Shown: piece by piece, positions 27,742 to 55,186 of the stretch
How positions within the stretch are numbered: the first letter of the stretch is position 1
Layout of the letters: each line of letters opens with the position of its first letter
Assembly: GCA_021794095.1 (NCBI GenBank)
Contig: JAJYRN010000018.1
Coordinates: forward strand, 1 to 56,143
Reading direction: 5' to 3'
DNA: 56,143 nt
Origin: Acidobacteriota bacterium
Lineage (GTDB): Bacteria; Acidobacteriota; Holophagae; Holophagales; Holophagaceae
Notes under the pieces: model-generated
The model's input: the letters and a program-made list of their open reading frames with translations, nothing else
Told to the model about the DNA's origin: nothing
The model's database searches: none
Position numbers and translations under genes: made by a program

Positions 27742-28200
27742 TCAGCTATCAGCCCCCAGCTGTCGCGCGCTGGGCGCCCCCTGCGGGACGAGGAGGGTTC
27801 GCAGCACGTGCCCCCCGTAGGCCGCCAGGAAGAGGCCAGAGCTGAGGCCGTGGGCCCAGGAGAAGGCCGTCCGCCAGGCTGGATCCACGGCCACCTGCAC
27901 GGCGTAGCCCGAGAGCACCATGGGGGCGATGAGCCCGGCCAGGGCGAGGCCCGTGCGCCGCCCCGCCGGCCCCCCCCGCAGGCGGGCCCAGAGATGGCCG
28001 CGCACCAGCACACCCAGGGTGAACACCAACAGGGGCGCCACCAGCACGTGGAGGTGCTGGGCCGTTCCCAGCCAGGGGCTGGGCTCCGGCCCGAACTCGC
28101 CCCTGCGCTGGCCGAACCAGCGCAGGCCGCCGTCCAGAAGCCCCGTAGCCGCCGTCAGCCAGGCCGCGACGTGGAGACTCCAGCGTTCCAGCGGACTCAT
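27742..28200 (-). CDS. Four-helix b-type cytochrome-like membrane protein
   Basis: 152 residues with four hydrophobic helices and histidines placed as in di-heme membrane cytochromes: H10 in helix 1, H49/H51 and H69 at the two ends of helix 2, H117 and H131 at the two ends of helix 4. This resembles cytochrome b561 or DUF4405 proteins that pass electrons across the inner membrane. ATG 28200 follows GGAGG by eight bases; ATGs further up lie in the repeat. It is the last gene of the apbE - porin - FMN-binding cluster, separated by inverted repeat B. A role as electron donor to the flavinylated protein is an inference. Confidence 0.65.
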   Translation of the reverse strand: MSPLERWSLHVAAWLTAATGLLDGGLRWFGQRRGEFGPEPSPWLGTAQHLHVLVAPLLVFTLGVLVRGHLWARLRGGPAGRRTGLALAGLIAPMVLSGYAVQVAVDPAWRTAFSWAHGLSSGLFLAAYGGHVLRTLLVPQGAPSARQLGADS

Positions 28201-28230
28201 TTCAAGCGCCTCCATGCTTGCTGAGGATAA

Positions 28231-28362
28231 AAAGCGGACCGCAGAGGCCACAGAGCGCCACAGAAGGCACAGAGGCAGGCAGCGGTACCGACGCCGATGG
28301 CCATGGGAACCCGCGCTGTTCTCTGTGTCTTCCTTGATCCTCTGTGTCCTCTGTGTTCCAGC
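28231..28362. repeat. Imperfect inverted repeat, copy B (CACAGAGG type)
   Basis: Left arm about 28231-28280 has GCAGAGGCCACAGAG and CACAGAAGGCACAGAGG; right arm about 28315-28362 has TTCTCTGTGTCTTCC and CCTCTGTGTCCTCTGTG. The arms pair imperfectly around a ~35-base centre. It fills most of the gap between the cytochrome gene and the FMN-binding gene and holds no credible frame. Copies C and D share the arm sequences. Confidence 0.75.
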
Positions 28363-28386
28363 CGTGCGTGACCGCCAGGATCGGTC

Positions 28387-28905
28387 TCATTTCGCGCCCC
28401 CGTAGAGCACCTGGTCGAGGGCCAGGCAGCGCCGCGCGGCGTCCGTCATGGCGTGGGCGGTGAGGGTGGCCCCGGAGAGGGGGTGGATCTCGCCCTTCAG
28501 GCTCAGCCGGTCATCGAGGGCCCTCCCCTCGAACTGCTTCACCCAGGCCGGCCGCGCCTGATAGTCCTGGGGCTCGTGGAAGACCACGGTCTCCACGCGG
28601 AGGATGCGGCCCTTCGCCGACACGGCCACCATCAGCGTCTCGTTCAGGGTGCGCACCCGGTGCGAGTCGAAGAAGGCCACCCCCGCCAGGCGCCCCTCTT
28701 TCCGGGCCTCATAGGTCACGAACCACCGCCCCGGCAGGTCACCCTTGGCCAGGGCCCGGACACGCTCGGCCTGGGCGTCGGTGAGGATGTGCTCCACGCG
28801 GGTCAGCTGGGCCCCGGGGAAGGCCAGGGCCATGGCCTCCTGGGGCGTGGGCAGGGCCGCGAAGAGCGGCAGGGTCAAAGCGAGGGGAGCGAGGATGCGG
28901 ATCAT
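28387..28905 (-). CDS. Exported FMN-binding domain protein (flavinylation substrate)
   Basis: 172 residues: signal peptide (about 1-18), then an RnfG/NqrC-type FMN-binding domain with SGATLT at 144-149. In this family ApbE links FMN through a phosphoester to the last Thr (here T149). The rest (VAFFDSHRVRTLNETLMVAVSAKGRILRV as two β-strands) fits the domain. The gene lies in one direction with apbE and the porin (7-base gap), which strengthens the reading as an ApbE substrate. Length suits a single-domain electron carrier in the periplasm. Confidence 0.85.
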   Translation of the reverse strand: MIRILAPLALTLPLFAALPTPQEAMALAFPGAQLTRVEHILTDAQAERVRALAKGDLPGRWFVTYEARKEGRLAGVAFFDSHRVRTLNETLMVAVSAKGRILRVETVVFHEPQDYQARPAWVKQFEGRALDDRLSLKGEIHPLSGATLTAHAMTDAARRCLALDQVLYGGAK

Positions 28906-28912
28906 GGCGGCC

Positions 28913-30193
28913 TCAAAAGGTGTAGCCGAGGGACAGGCTGAACTGGTCGCGGCCCGTGCGGGCGCGGTTCTCGCCGCGGGTCCAATCGGCCTTCACGGCG
29001 ATCTGGGGGATGGGCTTGTAGGCCATCCCGGCCGTCACCAGGCTCTGGTCCTGGGCCCCATCCACGAACACCCCCGACACCACGGCCTGCTGCGCGTCCA
29101 GGCGCTCCCAGCGCGCGTAGGGGATGAGGCCCTGCTTGGAACCCCGCAGCAGGTCGTAGCCCGCCTCCAGGTAGCCGCCCCACTGGCGCACGCCCACGGC
29201 GCGAGCCGGATCCGCAGGAGCCAGGGCCGCGATCCCCCCCTGGCTGAGGGTCGTGCGGGTGTAGAGCCCCCGCGCCTGGAACCCCTCGGCCTTGAATTCC
29301 GTATGGATGTCCCAGAGGGTGGTCTGGATAGCCTCCCCCGTGCCCGTCTGGTTGCTGTTGCCCGTGTAGAAGCTGCCGCCGAGGAGGAGGCCCGGAGCCG
29401 GGGTCCAGTCCAGGCGGCCCGTCCAGGCCGGGCTCTGCGCGTTGGCCTTGTTGCCGTCCTGGCGCCCATCGGCGATGCCCTGGGCGTTGAACCGCGAGGC
29501 TTCCAGTCCGTCCATCAGGTAGACGCGGTAGGTCAGGTGGCCCGGCAGGTCGCCGTGCAGGCCCACGCCGTTCTCGTGCCAGGTGGTGGGGATGAGCACC
29601 TGCTCCACCATGGGCCGGCGGGCCCCCAGGAAGGTGGGCGGCTCGTGGATCTCGTTGATGAAGCCCATGGGCACGAGCATCTGGCCGGCCCTCAGGTTCA
29701 CAGCCTTGGACAGGAGGAAGTCGAGGTAGTAGAACTCCGCGATGGCCTCGCCCTCCGGATGCTTATCGGCGTAGCCGCCGTGCTCAAACTCGATCTCCGA
29801 GTCGAACACGATGCGATCCGTGAACTTGTAGCCCGTGTAGAGGACCATCCGCAGGGCGTCCACGGACTTGTCGGTGCCGACATGGGTGCCATCCTGCAGG
29901 GTGGAGGCCTTCCCCTGGTAGAGGAACTCTCCGTAGCCGCCGATGCTGAGCCCCGCTGGCGCCCCGTAGACCTTGCTGGCGCTGGGGGCCATCCCGTAGC
30001 GGCCCTCCTGGGGCGCCGCAGGCATGGCGGTGCCAGCCATCTGGGATTCCAGCTCCTGGGACATGGCGTCCAGGCGGCGCTCCAGCTCCGCGATGCGCTG
30101 ATCCGCGGTGCGCGAATCCGGGGCGGGGGGGGTCTGGGCCAGGGCCGGCAGGGCCAGCAGCGCGAAGACGAGGGGGGTCAACGGGGGCTTCAT
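28913..30193 (-). CDS. Outer-membrane porin-like β-barrel with N-terminal coiled coil
   Basis: 426 residues: signal peptide ending LPALAQ, a short coiled coil (RIAELERRLDAMSQELESQM, residues about 33-52) and a long barrel of alternating strands ending in Phe (FSLSLGYTF), as needed for Bam insertion. The layout of coiled coil plus barrel resembles trimeric DcaP-type and phosphate-selective (OprO/P) porins. The cargo is unknown; its place between apbE (ATGA overlap) and the FMN-binding gene behind a Fur box suggests iron or an organic chelate, by context only. Confidence 0.8.
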   Translation of the reverse strand: MKPPLTPLVFALLALPALAQTPPAPDSRTADQRIAELERRLDAMSQELESQMAGTAMPAAPQEGRYGMAPSASKVYGAPAGLSIGGYGEFLYQGKASTLQDGTHVGTDKSVDALRMVLYTGYKFTDRIVFDSEIEFEHGGYADKHPEGEAIAEFYYLDFLLSKAVNLRAGQMLVPMGFINEIHEPPTFLGARRPMVEQVLIPTTWHENGVGLHGDLPGHLTYRVYLMDGLEASRFNAQGIADGRQDGNKANAQSPAWTGRLDWTPAPGLLLGGSFYTGNSNQTGTGEAIQTTLWDIHTEFKAEGFQARGLYTRTTLSQGGIAALAPADPARAVGVRQWGGYLEAGYDLLRGSKQGLIPYARWERLDAQQAVVSGVFVDGAQDQSLVTAGMAYKPIPQIAVKADWTRGENRARTGRDQFSLSLGYTF

Positions 30194-31116
30194 CGGAGCT
30201 CCTTGGGGTGCAAGGCACGGAACGCCGGGCTCATCCGGACGGCTCCGTCGTTCAACAGGAAGGCCGCGGCTGCGCCGTGGCGATGGGCCCAGGCCAGGCC
30301 CCGCTCGGGGCCCAGCACGTAGAGGGCGGTGGAGAGGATGTCCGCGGTGAGGCCATCGGACGCCACCACCGCGACGCTGCCCCAGGCCGGGCAGCGCCGT
30401 CCGGTGCGCGGATCGAGGATGTGACGGCCCCGCTCCGAGGTGCCGCTGCTGGAGAGCGAGGCGTCCTTCAGGAGCAGCGTCAAGCGCGGACGCCGCCGGT
30501 CCTGCGGGTCCGCGATGGAGGCCTCCACGGAACGACCCCAGGCCAGCAGCTGCCCGCCGAAATTGAGGAGGCCCGTCGGCGTTCTCGCCGCGGCCCGCAT
30601 CCGGTCCAGGGCGTAGCCCTTGAGGAAGCCGCCTTCCTCGAGGGCCGCCTGGGGATCACGCAGCCGGGCGGTGCCGGCCTTCCGGTCCAGCACCAGGAGC
30701 GCGGAGCCCGAGGCCCGCCGGGCGCGGGCCAGCTCCGCCTCCGAGGGATGGCGATGCCCGCCCTCCCGAATGCCCCAGACCCGCATCAGGGCCCCCAGCA
30801 CGGGTTCGAAGGTCCCATCCGTGCGGGCCTGCCAGGTCTGAGCCTGCGCCAGCAGATCCACCCATTCGGGATCGAGCGCCATCGGGCGGCCCCCGGCAGC
30901 GTTCAACCGGCTCCAGGCCGAGGCCGGATTCCAGGTGGAGCAGGCGACCTCGATCCGGGCCGATTCCCGCAGGGCGGCTTCCGAGGCCGCGTCCAGGTTC
31001 CCCGGGCCCTCCAGGTGAAGGTCGAGACGGGTTCCCATCGCCAGCACGCTGCGATCCAGCCCCTGCGCCGCCACCAGGGCGGGAAGGCAAAGAAGGGAAA
31101 CACCAGACCATTTCAT
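30190..31116 (-). CDS. apbE: FAD:protein FMN transferase
   Basis: ApbE transfers FMN from FAD onto Thr/Ser of exported proteins. The 308-residue product has a signal peptide (LLCLPALVAAQ), AMGTRLDL, WNPASAWSRLNAAGG, TDGTFEPVLGALMRVWG, GGFLKGYALDRM, LLNFGG and the HILDPRTG...ADILSTALYVLG segment with the metal-binding Asp. The usual DLGG is EEGG here. Its target is probably the FMN-binding protein two genes downstream. The ATG at 31116 has no ribosome binding site. An in-frame ATG (31143) and TTG (31152) follow GGAGAGG and would lengthen the signal peptide's basic region, so the start is open. A Fur box overlaps this region. Confidence 0.9.
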   Translation of the reverse strand: MKWSGVSLLCLPALVAAQGLDRSVLAMGTRLDLHLEGPGNLDAASEAALRESARIEVACSTWNPASAWSRLNAAGGRPMALDPEWVDLLAQAQTWQARTDGTFEPVLGALMRVWGIREGGHRHPSEAELARARRASGSALLVLDRKAGTARLRDPQAALEEGGFLKGYALDRMRAAARTPTGLLNFGGQLLAWGRSVEASIADPQDRRRPRLTLLLKDASLSSSGTSERGRHILDPRTGRRCPAWGSVAVVASDGLTADILSTALYVLGPERGLAWAHRHGAAAAFLLNDGAVRMSPAFRALHPKELR

Positions 31117-31119
31117 GAG

Positions 31120-31138
31120 ATTGAGTCTTATTCTAATT
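31120..31138 (-). promoter_or_regulatory. Fur box over the apbE promoter
   Basis: The 19 bases ATTGAGTCTTATTCTAATT (plus strand) match the Fur pattern AATGAGAATNATTCTCATT at 14 of 18 positions. A -10 TAGAAT (minus strand, 31130-31135) lies inside it, so bound Fur would block RNA polymerase. The longer stretch 31119-31150 is also bounded by GATTGA/TCAATC. Local AT richness contrasts with the high-GC surroundings. Control of the apbE-porin-FMN cluster by iron is inferred. Confidence 0.6.
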
Positions 31139-31180
31139 CGCATTTCAATCAAGCCTCTCCGTGAGACGAGATCTCAAAAA

Positions 31181-31194
31181 GTGATCTGCATCAC
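31181..31194. promoter_or_regulatory. CRP/FNR-family-like dyad
   Basis: GTGATCTGCATCAC: perfect five-base arms GTGAT/ATCAC around four bases, close to the CRP core TGTGA-N6-TCACA and to FNR-type half-sites. It sits between the divergent apbE and MA-peptidase genes, about 64 bases upstream of the likely apbE start site (a class I position), and over the -35 region of the plus-strand gene. A second short dyad TGAGA-N5-TCTCA lies at 31162-31176. Confidence 0.45.
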
Positions 31195-45402: not shown

Positions 45403-45585
45403 GGGAAAAGCCGGAACACGGAGGACGCGGAAATCCACGGAGGACGCAGAGGAAAAATTTCTGACATGAACGCGGTACCCCGGCCAAGCCGGAATACCAC
45501 GTTTGATTTCAGAGTGGGTTCCATGGCTGTCTTCCTCTGTGTTCTCTGTGGCACGCTCTGCGTCCTCTGCGTTCCGCTTTTTATC
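45403..45585. repeat. Imperfect inverted repeat, copy C (ACGGAGGACGC type)
   Basis: Left arm 45403-45459 has GGGAAAAGCCGGAACACGG and CACGGAGGACGCAGAGG; right arm about 45525-45585 has TCCTCTGTGTTCTCTGTGG and CTCTGCGTCCTCTGCG. The ~65-base centre is unpaired. The right arm overlaps the prmA stop codon. Left arms of copies C and D share GGAAAAGC-GGAACAC-GAGGACGC. Confidence 0.75.
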
Positions 45586-55035: not shown

Positions 55036-55186
55036 GTTCCGGAAAAGCGGGAACACAGAGGACGCAGACTTCCCGCAGAGGGCGCAGAGGAGGACTCCGC
55101 CATGGAAAGCGCAGGCCTCCATCTCCAACTGCGGGGGGGCTTGACCCGTTCCCTGCGTCCTACCCGGGCCTCTGTGTACCGCTGTT
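55036..55186. repeat. Imperfect inverted repeat, copy D (ACACAGAGGACGC type)
   Basis: Left arm about 55036-55090 has GGAAAAGCGGGAACACAG, GAGGACGCAGA and GGGCGCAGAGG; right arm about 55148-55186 has GTTCCCTGCGTCCTAC and GCCTCTGTGTACCGCT. It fills most of the gap between the phosphatase and sirtuin genes and carries no credible coding frame. Confidence 0.7.

Follow-up and report, generated by a model that had tools for sequence, protein, structure and literature searches.

A conserved apbE, porin, FMN_bind and cytochrome gene set with Fur-type promoter boxes in Geothrix and its probable role in iron acquisition

The DNA analyzed here (the window) is the 56,143-nucleotide contig JAJYRN010000018.1 of assembly GCA_021794095.1, from an acidobacterium of the family Holophagaceae whose genus is that of Geothrix fermentans DSM 14018 and other named Geothrix species. 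On its minus strand, from 31116 down to 27742, lie apbE and the genes for a porin, an exported FMN_bind protein (FMN, flavin mononucleotide) and a small membrane cytochrome, with mutL coming next; all four open reading frames (ORFs) are present where the initial annotation of the window had placed them. Two Fur-type boxes precede apbE. We consider it likely, from sequence comparison and structure prediction, that these genes form a Fur-repressed iron-acquisition module, in which ferric iron would be reduced by way of the cytochrome and FMN after entering through the porin. The features of the locus are as follows.

30190..31116, minus strand: apbE, exported FAD:protein FMN transferase (PF02424, E 3.4e-49); likely start taken from the promoter alignment
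28913..30193, minus strand: outer-membrane porin, modeled with 16 strands, an N-terminal helix and no TonB plug (AlphaFold2 and Foldseek)
28387..28905, minus strand: exported FMN_bind protein with predicted flavinylation at Thr147 of SGAT (PF04205 and alignments)
27742..28200, minus strand: small four-helix, probably di-haem, b-type cytochrome (AlphaFold2 and conserved His); alternative starts at 28212 and 28251
31162..31176: Fur-type box 1, TGAGATCTCGTCTCA when read on the minus strand, the sole exact TGAGA-N5-TCTCA of its genome
31116..31130: Fur-type box 2, TAAGACTCAATCTCA, ending on the A of the likely apbE start codon ATG
31147..31152, minus strand: putative -35-like element TTGATT; in 36 paired promoters the consensus at a constant distance from box 2 is TTGA
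31181..31194: Crp/Fnr-family-like site GTGATGCAGATCAC, 18 nucleotides (nt) 5' of box 1
28240..28355: interspersed repeats of the CACAGAGG type, between the FMN_bind and cytochrome genes

The neighbourhood is clearly conserved across Holophagae, which had been set as a check on the initial annotation. Through matches to the FMN_bind protein (FMN protein below) or to the cytochrome we fetched 53 regions and counted the 46 Holophagaceae ones of window-type arrangement; 38 of these 46 contain all four genes, mostly adjoining mutL. Three loci cut by contig ends (L123, L143 and L145; L and G numbers are our labels for loci and genomes) were counted as incomplete and L131 was counted despite a cut apbE. 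The seven remaining regions (L136, L138-L142 and L144) are more distant arrangements, and two of them, L138 and L139, hold all four families. At L137 (genome G042), apbE, the cytochrome gene and a Fur-type box are kept and the porin and FMN genes are gone from between them; the same genome has another porin-FMN locus, L136. Class-wide, and with distant matches included, the FMN protein was found in 50, the cytochrome in 49 and the porin in 51 of 93 genomes.

The gene set also reaches well beyond the class, the cytochrome profile having matched 103 of 396 Acidobacteriota genomes, in 55 of 210 genera. Outside the class it pointed to 76 places in 75 genomes; we fetched 40 of them (39 genomes), picked by score and family and not at random, and added 42 of the 75 loci from a search with the FMN protein (FMN-protein identity at most 57%), setting 33 Holophagaceae-like ones aside as repeats. 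The resulting 82 distant loci of roughly 10-12 kilobases (kb) each, minus eight duplicates, left 74 distinct ones, of which 51 had four genes, 21 three and two only two. The FMN gene was present on all 74, the cytochrome gene on 71, the porin gene on 70 and apbE on 56; as cytochrome and FMN protein served as bait, the porin and ApbE counts are the telling ones. Contigs labelled Planctomycetota, Gemmatimonadota, Myxococcota and Bdellovibrionota (Oligoflexia, Bacteriovorax) carry the four-gene set, with the reservation that nearly all distant loci come from metagenome bins, whose taxon labels can be wrong: L359, labelled Deltaproteobacteria, turns out to be the gene set of L264, whose genome is assigned to the phylum of the window.

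Conservation extends to the promoter. TGAGA-N5-TCTCA, with at most one mismatch, occurs in 41 of 43 orthologous apbE promoters (window included) versus 0.4% of mononucleotide-shuffled promoters, and in 36 of the 43 there are two Fur-type palindromes, each with at most two mismatches, 43-47 nt apart. We take TGAGAATNATTCTCA to be the Fur-like 7-1-7 form. The initial annotation had described one Fur box over the apbE promoter; the palindrome is real and beyond chance, but there are two boxes instead of one and the second ends on the start codon. An ATG or GTG starts on the last base of box 2 in 26 of the 36 paired promoters. In the window, ATG 31116 is the likely start of apbE judging from this alignment; the longest mechanical ORF call begins at TTG 31152, but with box 2 ending on the A of ATG 31116 this TTG falls inside the conserved -35-like TTGATT. 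The start codon on the end of box 2 and the position of the -35-like element together suggest that the apbE mRNA may be leaderless. In 31 of 42 promoters, box 1 is preceded at an offset of exactly 18 nt by GTGA-N6-TCAC with at most one mismatch, compared with 0.1% at other offsets, and this candidate Crp/Fnr-type site could add oxygen or other control.

The same box marks iron genes elsewhere in the genus. We found 103 exact boxes in 47 Geothrix genomes (those of the module itself included), versus nine for the reversed pattern, and at least one exact box in 42 of the 47. Among the matches listed, 37 boxes lay away from a window-type module: 28 were fetched separately, three more were seen in L138 and L139, and six were left out. 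By reading, eight of the 28 fetched boxes are at tonB, five at TonB-receptor-like genes and five near HemS/ChuX-like genes, and Pfam was run on four representatives of these neighbours, two of them receptors, the others a tonB and a HemS-like gene. Starts of the HemS-like genes (at L187, L191, L195, L197 and L203) are 87-239 nt away from the box; tonB is closer to it. In the window's own genome there are two Fur-family genes, one some 5 kb away from feoB; in addition the box TGAGATTATGACTCA, with one mismatch, covers the beginning of an ORF that looks feoA-like from its sequence. Upstream regions of the distant loci were scored against the Fur consensus: 25 of 72 reach 10/12 or better (shuffles, 0.5%) and 40 of 72 reach 9/12 or better (shuffles, 4.3%). 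In raw counts, a fur-family gene is present on 13 of the 74 distant loci, seven of them confirmed by Pfam, and an FTR1 iron permease gene on four, all confirmed; L335 and L344 show the order fur, FTR1, apbE, porin, FMN gene, cytochrome gene. Among the neighbours, reading frames antisense to the module itself were disregarded as artefacts of gene calling. Fur-type control, as claimed initially, and a connection to iron uptake draw support from the conserved promoter, from the box shared with tonB and receptor genes, and from the presence of fur and FTR1 on some loci. We regard Fur-type control of the module as highly probable on the strength of the conserved promoter and of the box shared with iron genes, with Fur as the presumed binding protein.

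Two of the four proteins belong to well-defined families. The ApbE match to PF02424 lies above the Pfam cut-off, 13 distinct sequences of the ApbE family came up in a PDB search with the protein, and a Sec-type export signal can be read from its sequence. A second ApbE gene exists in the same genome (L001, C28:35289). The FMN protein matches PF04205 (E 3.4e-6, also above the cut-off), and the nearest solved relatives of its profile are RnfG structures (E 1.4e-12). Its SGATLT motif is present, with SGAT at residues 144-147. In [S/T]GA[S/T] the flavinylated residue is the last one (PMC12052999; PMC8238504), and by this rule the predicted FMN acceptor is Thr147 and not Thr149, as had been proposed. 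All 25 sequences of our first alignment (A2) have Thr at residue 147, and those of a wider one (A4) have Thr or, in 3 of 26, Ser; in some homologues position 144 is Gly or Ala and position 146 is Cys or Ser. The aspartate position of DxxSGAT is taken by His141 in the window protein, and replacing this aspartate had minor effects only (PMC12052999). As in extracytosolic ApbE flavinylation, we have here an ApbE with an export signal, from its sequence, and a substrate with [S/T]GA[S/T], from which we infer that ApbE attaches FMN covalently to Thr147 of the exported protein.

The cytochrome is a less familiar protein. Its AlphaFold2 model has four long helices (pLDDT, the predicted local distance difference test score, 89.8). 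His51 and His69 of helix 2 and His117 of helix 4 are invariant in 34 sequences, and His131 of helix 4 is kept in at least 90% of them. A four-helix cytochrome with His pairs at both membrane faces had been described in the initial annotation; the helices and the conserved histidines were borne out, while their pairing and the haems themselves are predictions: the four residues fit two b haems, one near each membrane face. The window protein matched no Pfam family at E <= 0.001, the threshold applied to the cytochrome and the porin in a scan of eight window proteins, and among its 34 homologues weak matches at E <= 5 included cytochrome b561 (9/34) and DUF4405 (3/34). With the cytochrome model, Foldseek gave no match at E <= 0.001 (best E 0.25), and the alignment profile retrieved nothing meaningful from the PDB. 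Haem proteins of similar fold include E. coli hydrogenase-1 cytochrome b, FdnI and superoxide oxidase; VIA-align Z values of up to 11.8 can, however, also be attained by helical bundles that share no ancestry, and unrelated bundles (PsbQ, chemoreceptor domains) rank among the haem proteins, so that the fold supports a haem-bundle shape only.

The alignment-based AlphaFold2 model of the porin shows 16 strands and an N-terminal helix (pLDDT 85.8), and its best structural matches in the PDB (Foldseek) are trimeric porins: Vibrio OmpT/OmpU, OmpC, PorB, Omp32 and OprP. The window porin matched no Pfam family at the above threshold; Porin_O_P was matched by 14 of 28 porin homologues at E <= 1 (best 2e-7), and the alignment profile found nothing meaningful in the PDB (best E 0.44). 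Conserved stretches include GGYGE, HEP and PTTWRENG. Two other identities were considered for this protein and rejected. A TonB receptor requires a 22-strand barrel with a plug, and the model has 16 strands and no plug; two of the 28 homologues matched the TonB-receptor barrel weakly (best 0.0036). A flavinylated barrel of the DUF3570 type was also discarded, as no DUF3570 match appeared among the 28 porins at E <= 1.

Some peculiarities of the locus itself may be added. The apbE and porin genes overlap by 4 bases, and 7 bases separate the porin gene from the FMN gene. The gap between the FMN and cytochrome genes, which holds the CACAGAGG-type repeats, is closed in many relatives. Repeats of this type also occur at 45436-45571 and 55054-55089 of the window; over all three places there are 8 matches versus 0.23 expected. 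Short extra copies of the final 21-22 mutL codons are found downstream of mutL in L097, L110 and L113.

The conserved gene set, the promoter boxes, the link to iron genes, the predicted folds and the flavinylation motif may be joined into the following model. When iron is short, Fur would leave both boxes, the second of which appears to include the promoter -10 region as well as the start codon, and the operon would be transcribed. Through the four-helix cytochrome, electrons that probably come from quinol would cross the inner membrane and reach the FMN predicted to be attached by ApbE to Thr147 of the exported protein. The flavin would then reduce ferric iron, or a small ferric chelate admitted by the dedicated porin, and the ferrous iron might be imported via FeoB here or via an FTR1-type permease in some relatives. 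A role of the module in iron acquisition is, in our judgment, quite probable. Reduction of ferric iron by the flavin is favored with somewhat less assurance, and for ferric chelates as the porin cargo the chances seem even. The periplasmic ferric reductase and iron uptake route proposed in the initial annotation therefore gained support for its link to iron uptake, and its reductase step stays a prediction.

The comparison with TonB bears on a different role in iron nutrition, namely that the module performs the reductive step for ferric siderophores or haem imported by a separate TonB-dependent receptor, the porin serving small solutes only. PepSY-type reductases do so in Pseudomonas and Caulobacter (PMC12424826), and the Fur-type box is common to TonB receptors in the genus. 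On the other hand, no receptor belongs to the conserved gene set, and the module and a Fur-boxed tonB are rarely found together in Geothrix: Fur-boxed tonB orthologues (at least 49% identity, a cut chosen after the hits were seen) occur in 9 of the 14 genomes that lack a window-type FMN gene and in 2 of the 33 that have it, with a Fisher p of 6e-5 that overstates the exclusion because Geothrix genomes are related. Among genomes at least 90% complete the figures are 7 of 9 and 2 of 22 (p 4e-4, read with the same caution). Some TonB-like match exists in 46 of the 47 Geothrix genomes, the other TonB proteins being more distant. We thus consider this role of the module unlikely. A broader idea, that TonB-independent iron uptake through a passive porin and a cytochrome-FMN wire occurs across several phyla and replaces the Fur-controlled TonB route in many Geothrix, is put forward only tentatively, as it seems to us rather less than an even bet.

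Other acceptors than iron were also weighed. A Fur-controlled periplasmic reductase might serve copper, peroxide, quinones or oxidised protein, and be made when iron is short, either as a substitute for iron enzymes or to protect them. Many different acceptors are described for FMN_bind domains (PMC8238504), and some neighbours point the same way: in L117 a multicopper oxidase gene (Pfam) stands between the porin and FMN genes, with similar ORFs in L121 and L125, and at the second-type loci L138 and L139 (genomes G040 and G026) a di-haem peroxidase gene comes first, with the same Fur-type box upstream of it and distant porin, FMN_bind, ApbE and cytochrome genes beside it. The L138 peroxidase belongs to CCP/MauG (Pfam) and a similar protein is found in L139. 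The ORFs inserted at this place in L117, L121 and L125 have a lipobox-like start, as read from sequence. Against this stand fur and FTR1 as recurring neighbours on distant loci and the box shared with tonB, TonB receptors and HemS-like genes, and we hold such a non-iron function to be improbable. The initial annotation had further suggested that the set could feed extracellular electron transfer, in which case the cytochrome and flavoprotein would send electrons out by way of the porin, to acceptors outside the cell or to flavin shuttles. Conduits that combine a porin with cytochromes are known, and the genus includes named Geothrix isolates. Yet there is no CxxCH in any frame between 25 and 36 kb of the window, and at least two CxxCH occur in just one of 760 predicted genes (module genes included) on the 82 distant loci. 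Moreover, the module is missing from Geothrix G018 and G028, whose listed completeness is 100%, it does occur on contigs that bear the labels Planctomycetota, Gemmatimonadota and Bdellovibrionota, and Fur-type control suggests assimilation. The suggestion is thus very improbable. The di-haem peroxidase genes of L138 and L139 lie outside the 82 loci scanned for CxxCH.

Several observations weigh against iron acquisition by a Fur-repressed reductase and its porin. The multicopper oxidase and di-haem peroxidase neighbours leave other metals or peroxide possible. FTR1, found on just four of 74 distant loci, is absent from the genome of the window, and the fur and FTR1 neighbour counts come without a chance rate. 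Ten of the 28 fetched boxes have no clear iron gene beside them (six of the 37 listed having been left out), and 32 of 72 distant upstream regions score 8/12 or less against the Fur consensus. The single exact box in the window's own genome cannot separate Fur from a private regulator, so that the genus-wide search is more telling. Four Holophagaceae loci (L127, L133, L134 and L135) keep apbE, the FMN gene and the cytochrome gene but have no porin gene, which means that the porin is not always linked. Finally, the module is described here from sequences and predicted structures.

Among published systems, PMC8238504 (Meheust et al. 2021) lists NapH-, MsrQ-, PepSY-, DsbD- and NQR/RNF-like flavinylation systems and P19 clusters, PMC11334425 adds DUF4405 and FezC cytochromes, and PMC12424826 reports on an operon under Fur regulation that contains a TonB receptor and a PepSY reductase. 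The word "porin" is absent from the main text of PMC8238504 and of PMC11334425, and a gene set containing a porin was not found described in the titles and opening lines of abstracts among the matches listed (subscription papers and supplements lay outside this search, and the tables of PMC8238504 could hold the cluster). The PepSY-like systems (FoxB-type ferrisiderophore reductases) resemble the module in having a membrane cytochrome, ApbE and an exported flavoprotein; Fur-repressed members have been reported and ferric reduction for assimilation has been proposed for them (PMC8238504). The module differs from them in its four-helix cytochrome (only one of the 34 homologues matched PepSY_TM, with an E of 0.7), in its FMN_bind substrate in place of DUF2271, and in its conserved porin in place of a TonB receptor. 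The DUF4405 and FezC proteins are likewise small flavinylation-associated membrane cytochromes with four central histidines, but published DUF4405 proteins have six helices and flavodoxin-like substrates (PMC11334425). DUF4405 (PF14358) is matched by three of the 34 cytochrome homologues (best 1.2e-4), the window protein not being among them, and FezC is likened to the module cytochrome by description, not by sequence.

The P19-FTR1-FMN_bind clusters share an FMN_bind protein and an FTR1 permease with some of our loci, but they are mostly Gram-positive (PMC8238504), whereas the module has a porin and a cytochrome, FTR1 accompanies it on only the four distant loci, and no P19 (PF10634) was detected in the eight scanned window proteins. 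RnfG and NqrC have the FMN_bind domain and are the closest solved relatives; the FMN protein of the module is in contrast a separate, exported one, and there are no Rnf/Nqr genes among the eight scanned proteins. The porin shares the 16-strand barrel fold of OmpF/OmpC, Omp32 and OprP-type porins but is a family of its own by sequence, as its profile search of the PDB indicates. Unlike in porin-cytochrome conduits for extracellular electron transfer, no multihaem c-type cytochrome accompanies it in the CxxCH scan of the window described above. Extracytosolic flavin electron transfer is a young field, in which several membrane carriers have been catalogued and few tied to function. The present set contributes to this field a small family of cytochromes that has no clear Pfam counterpart, a co-travelling porin, and control of the iron-sensor type that is visible from sequence; it offers a testable answer to the question of how some diderm soil and sediment bacteria may obtain iron without relying on TonB receptors.

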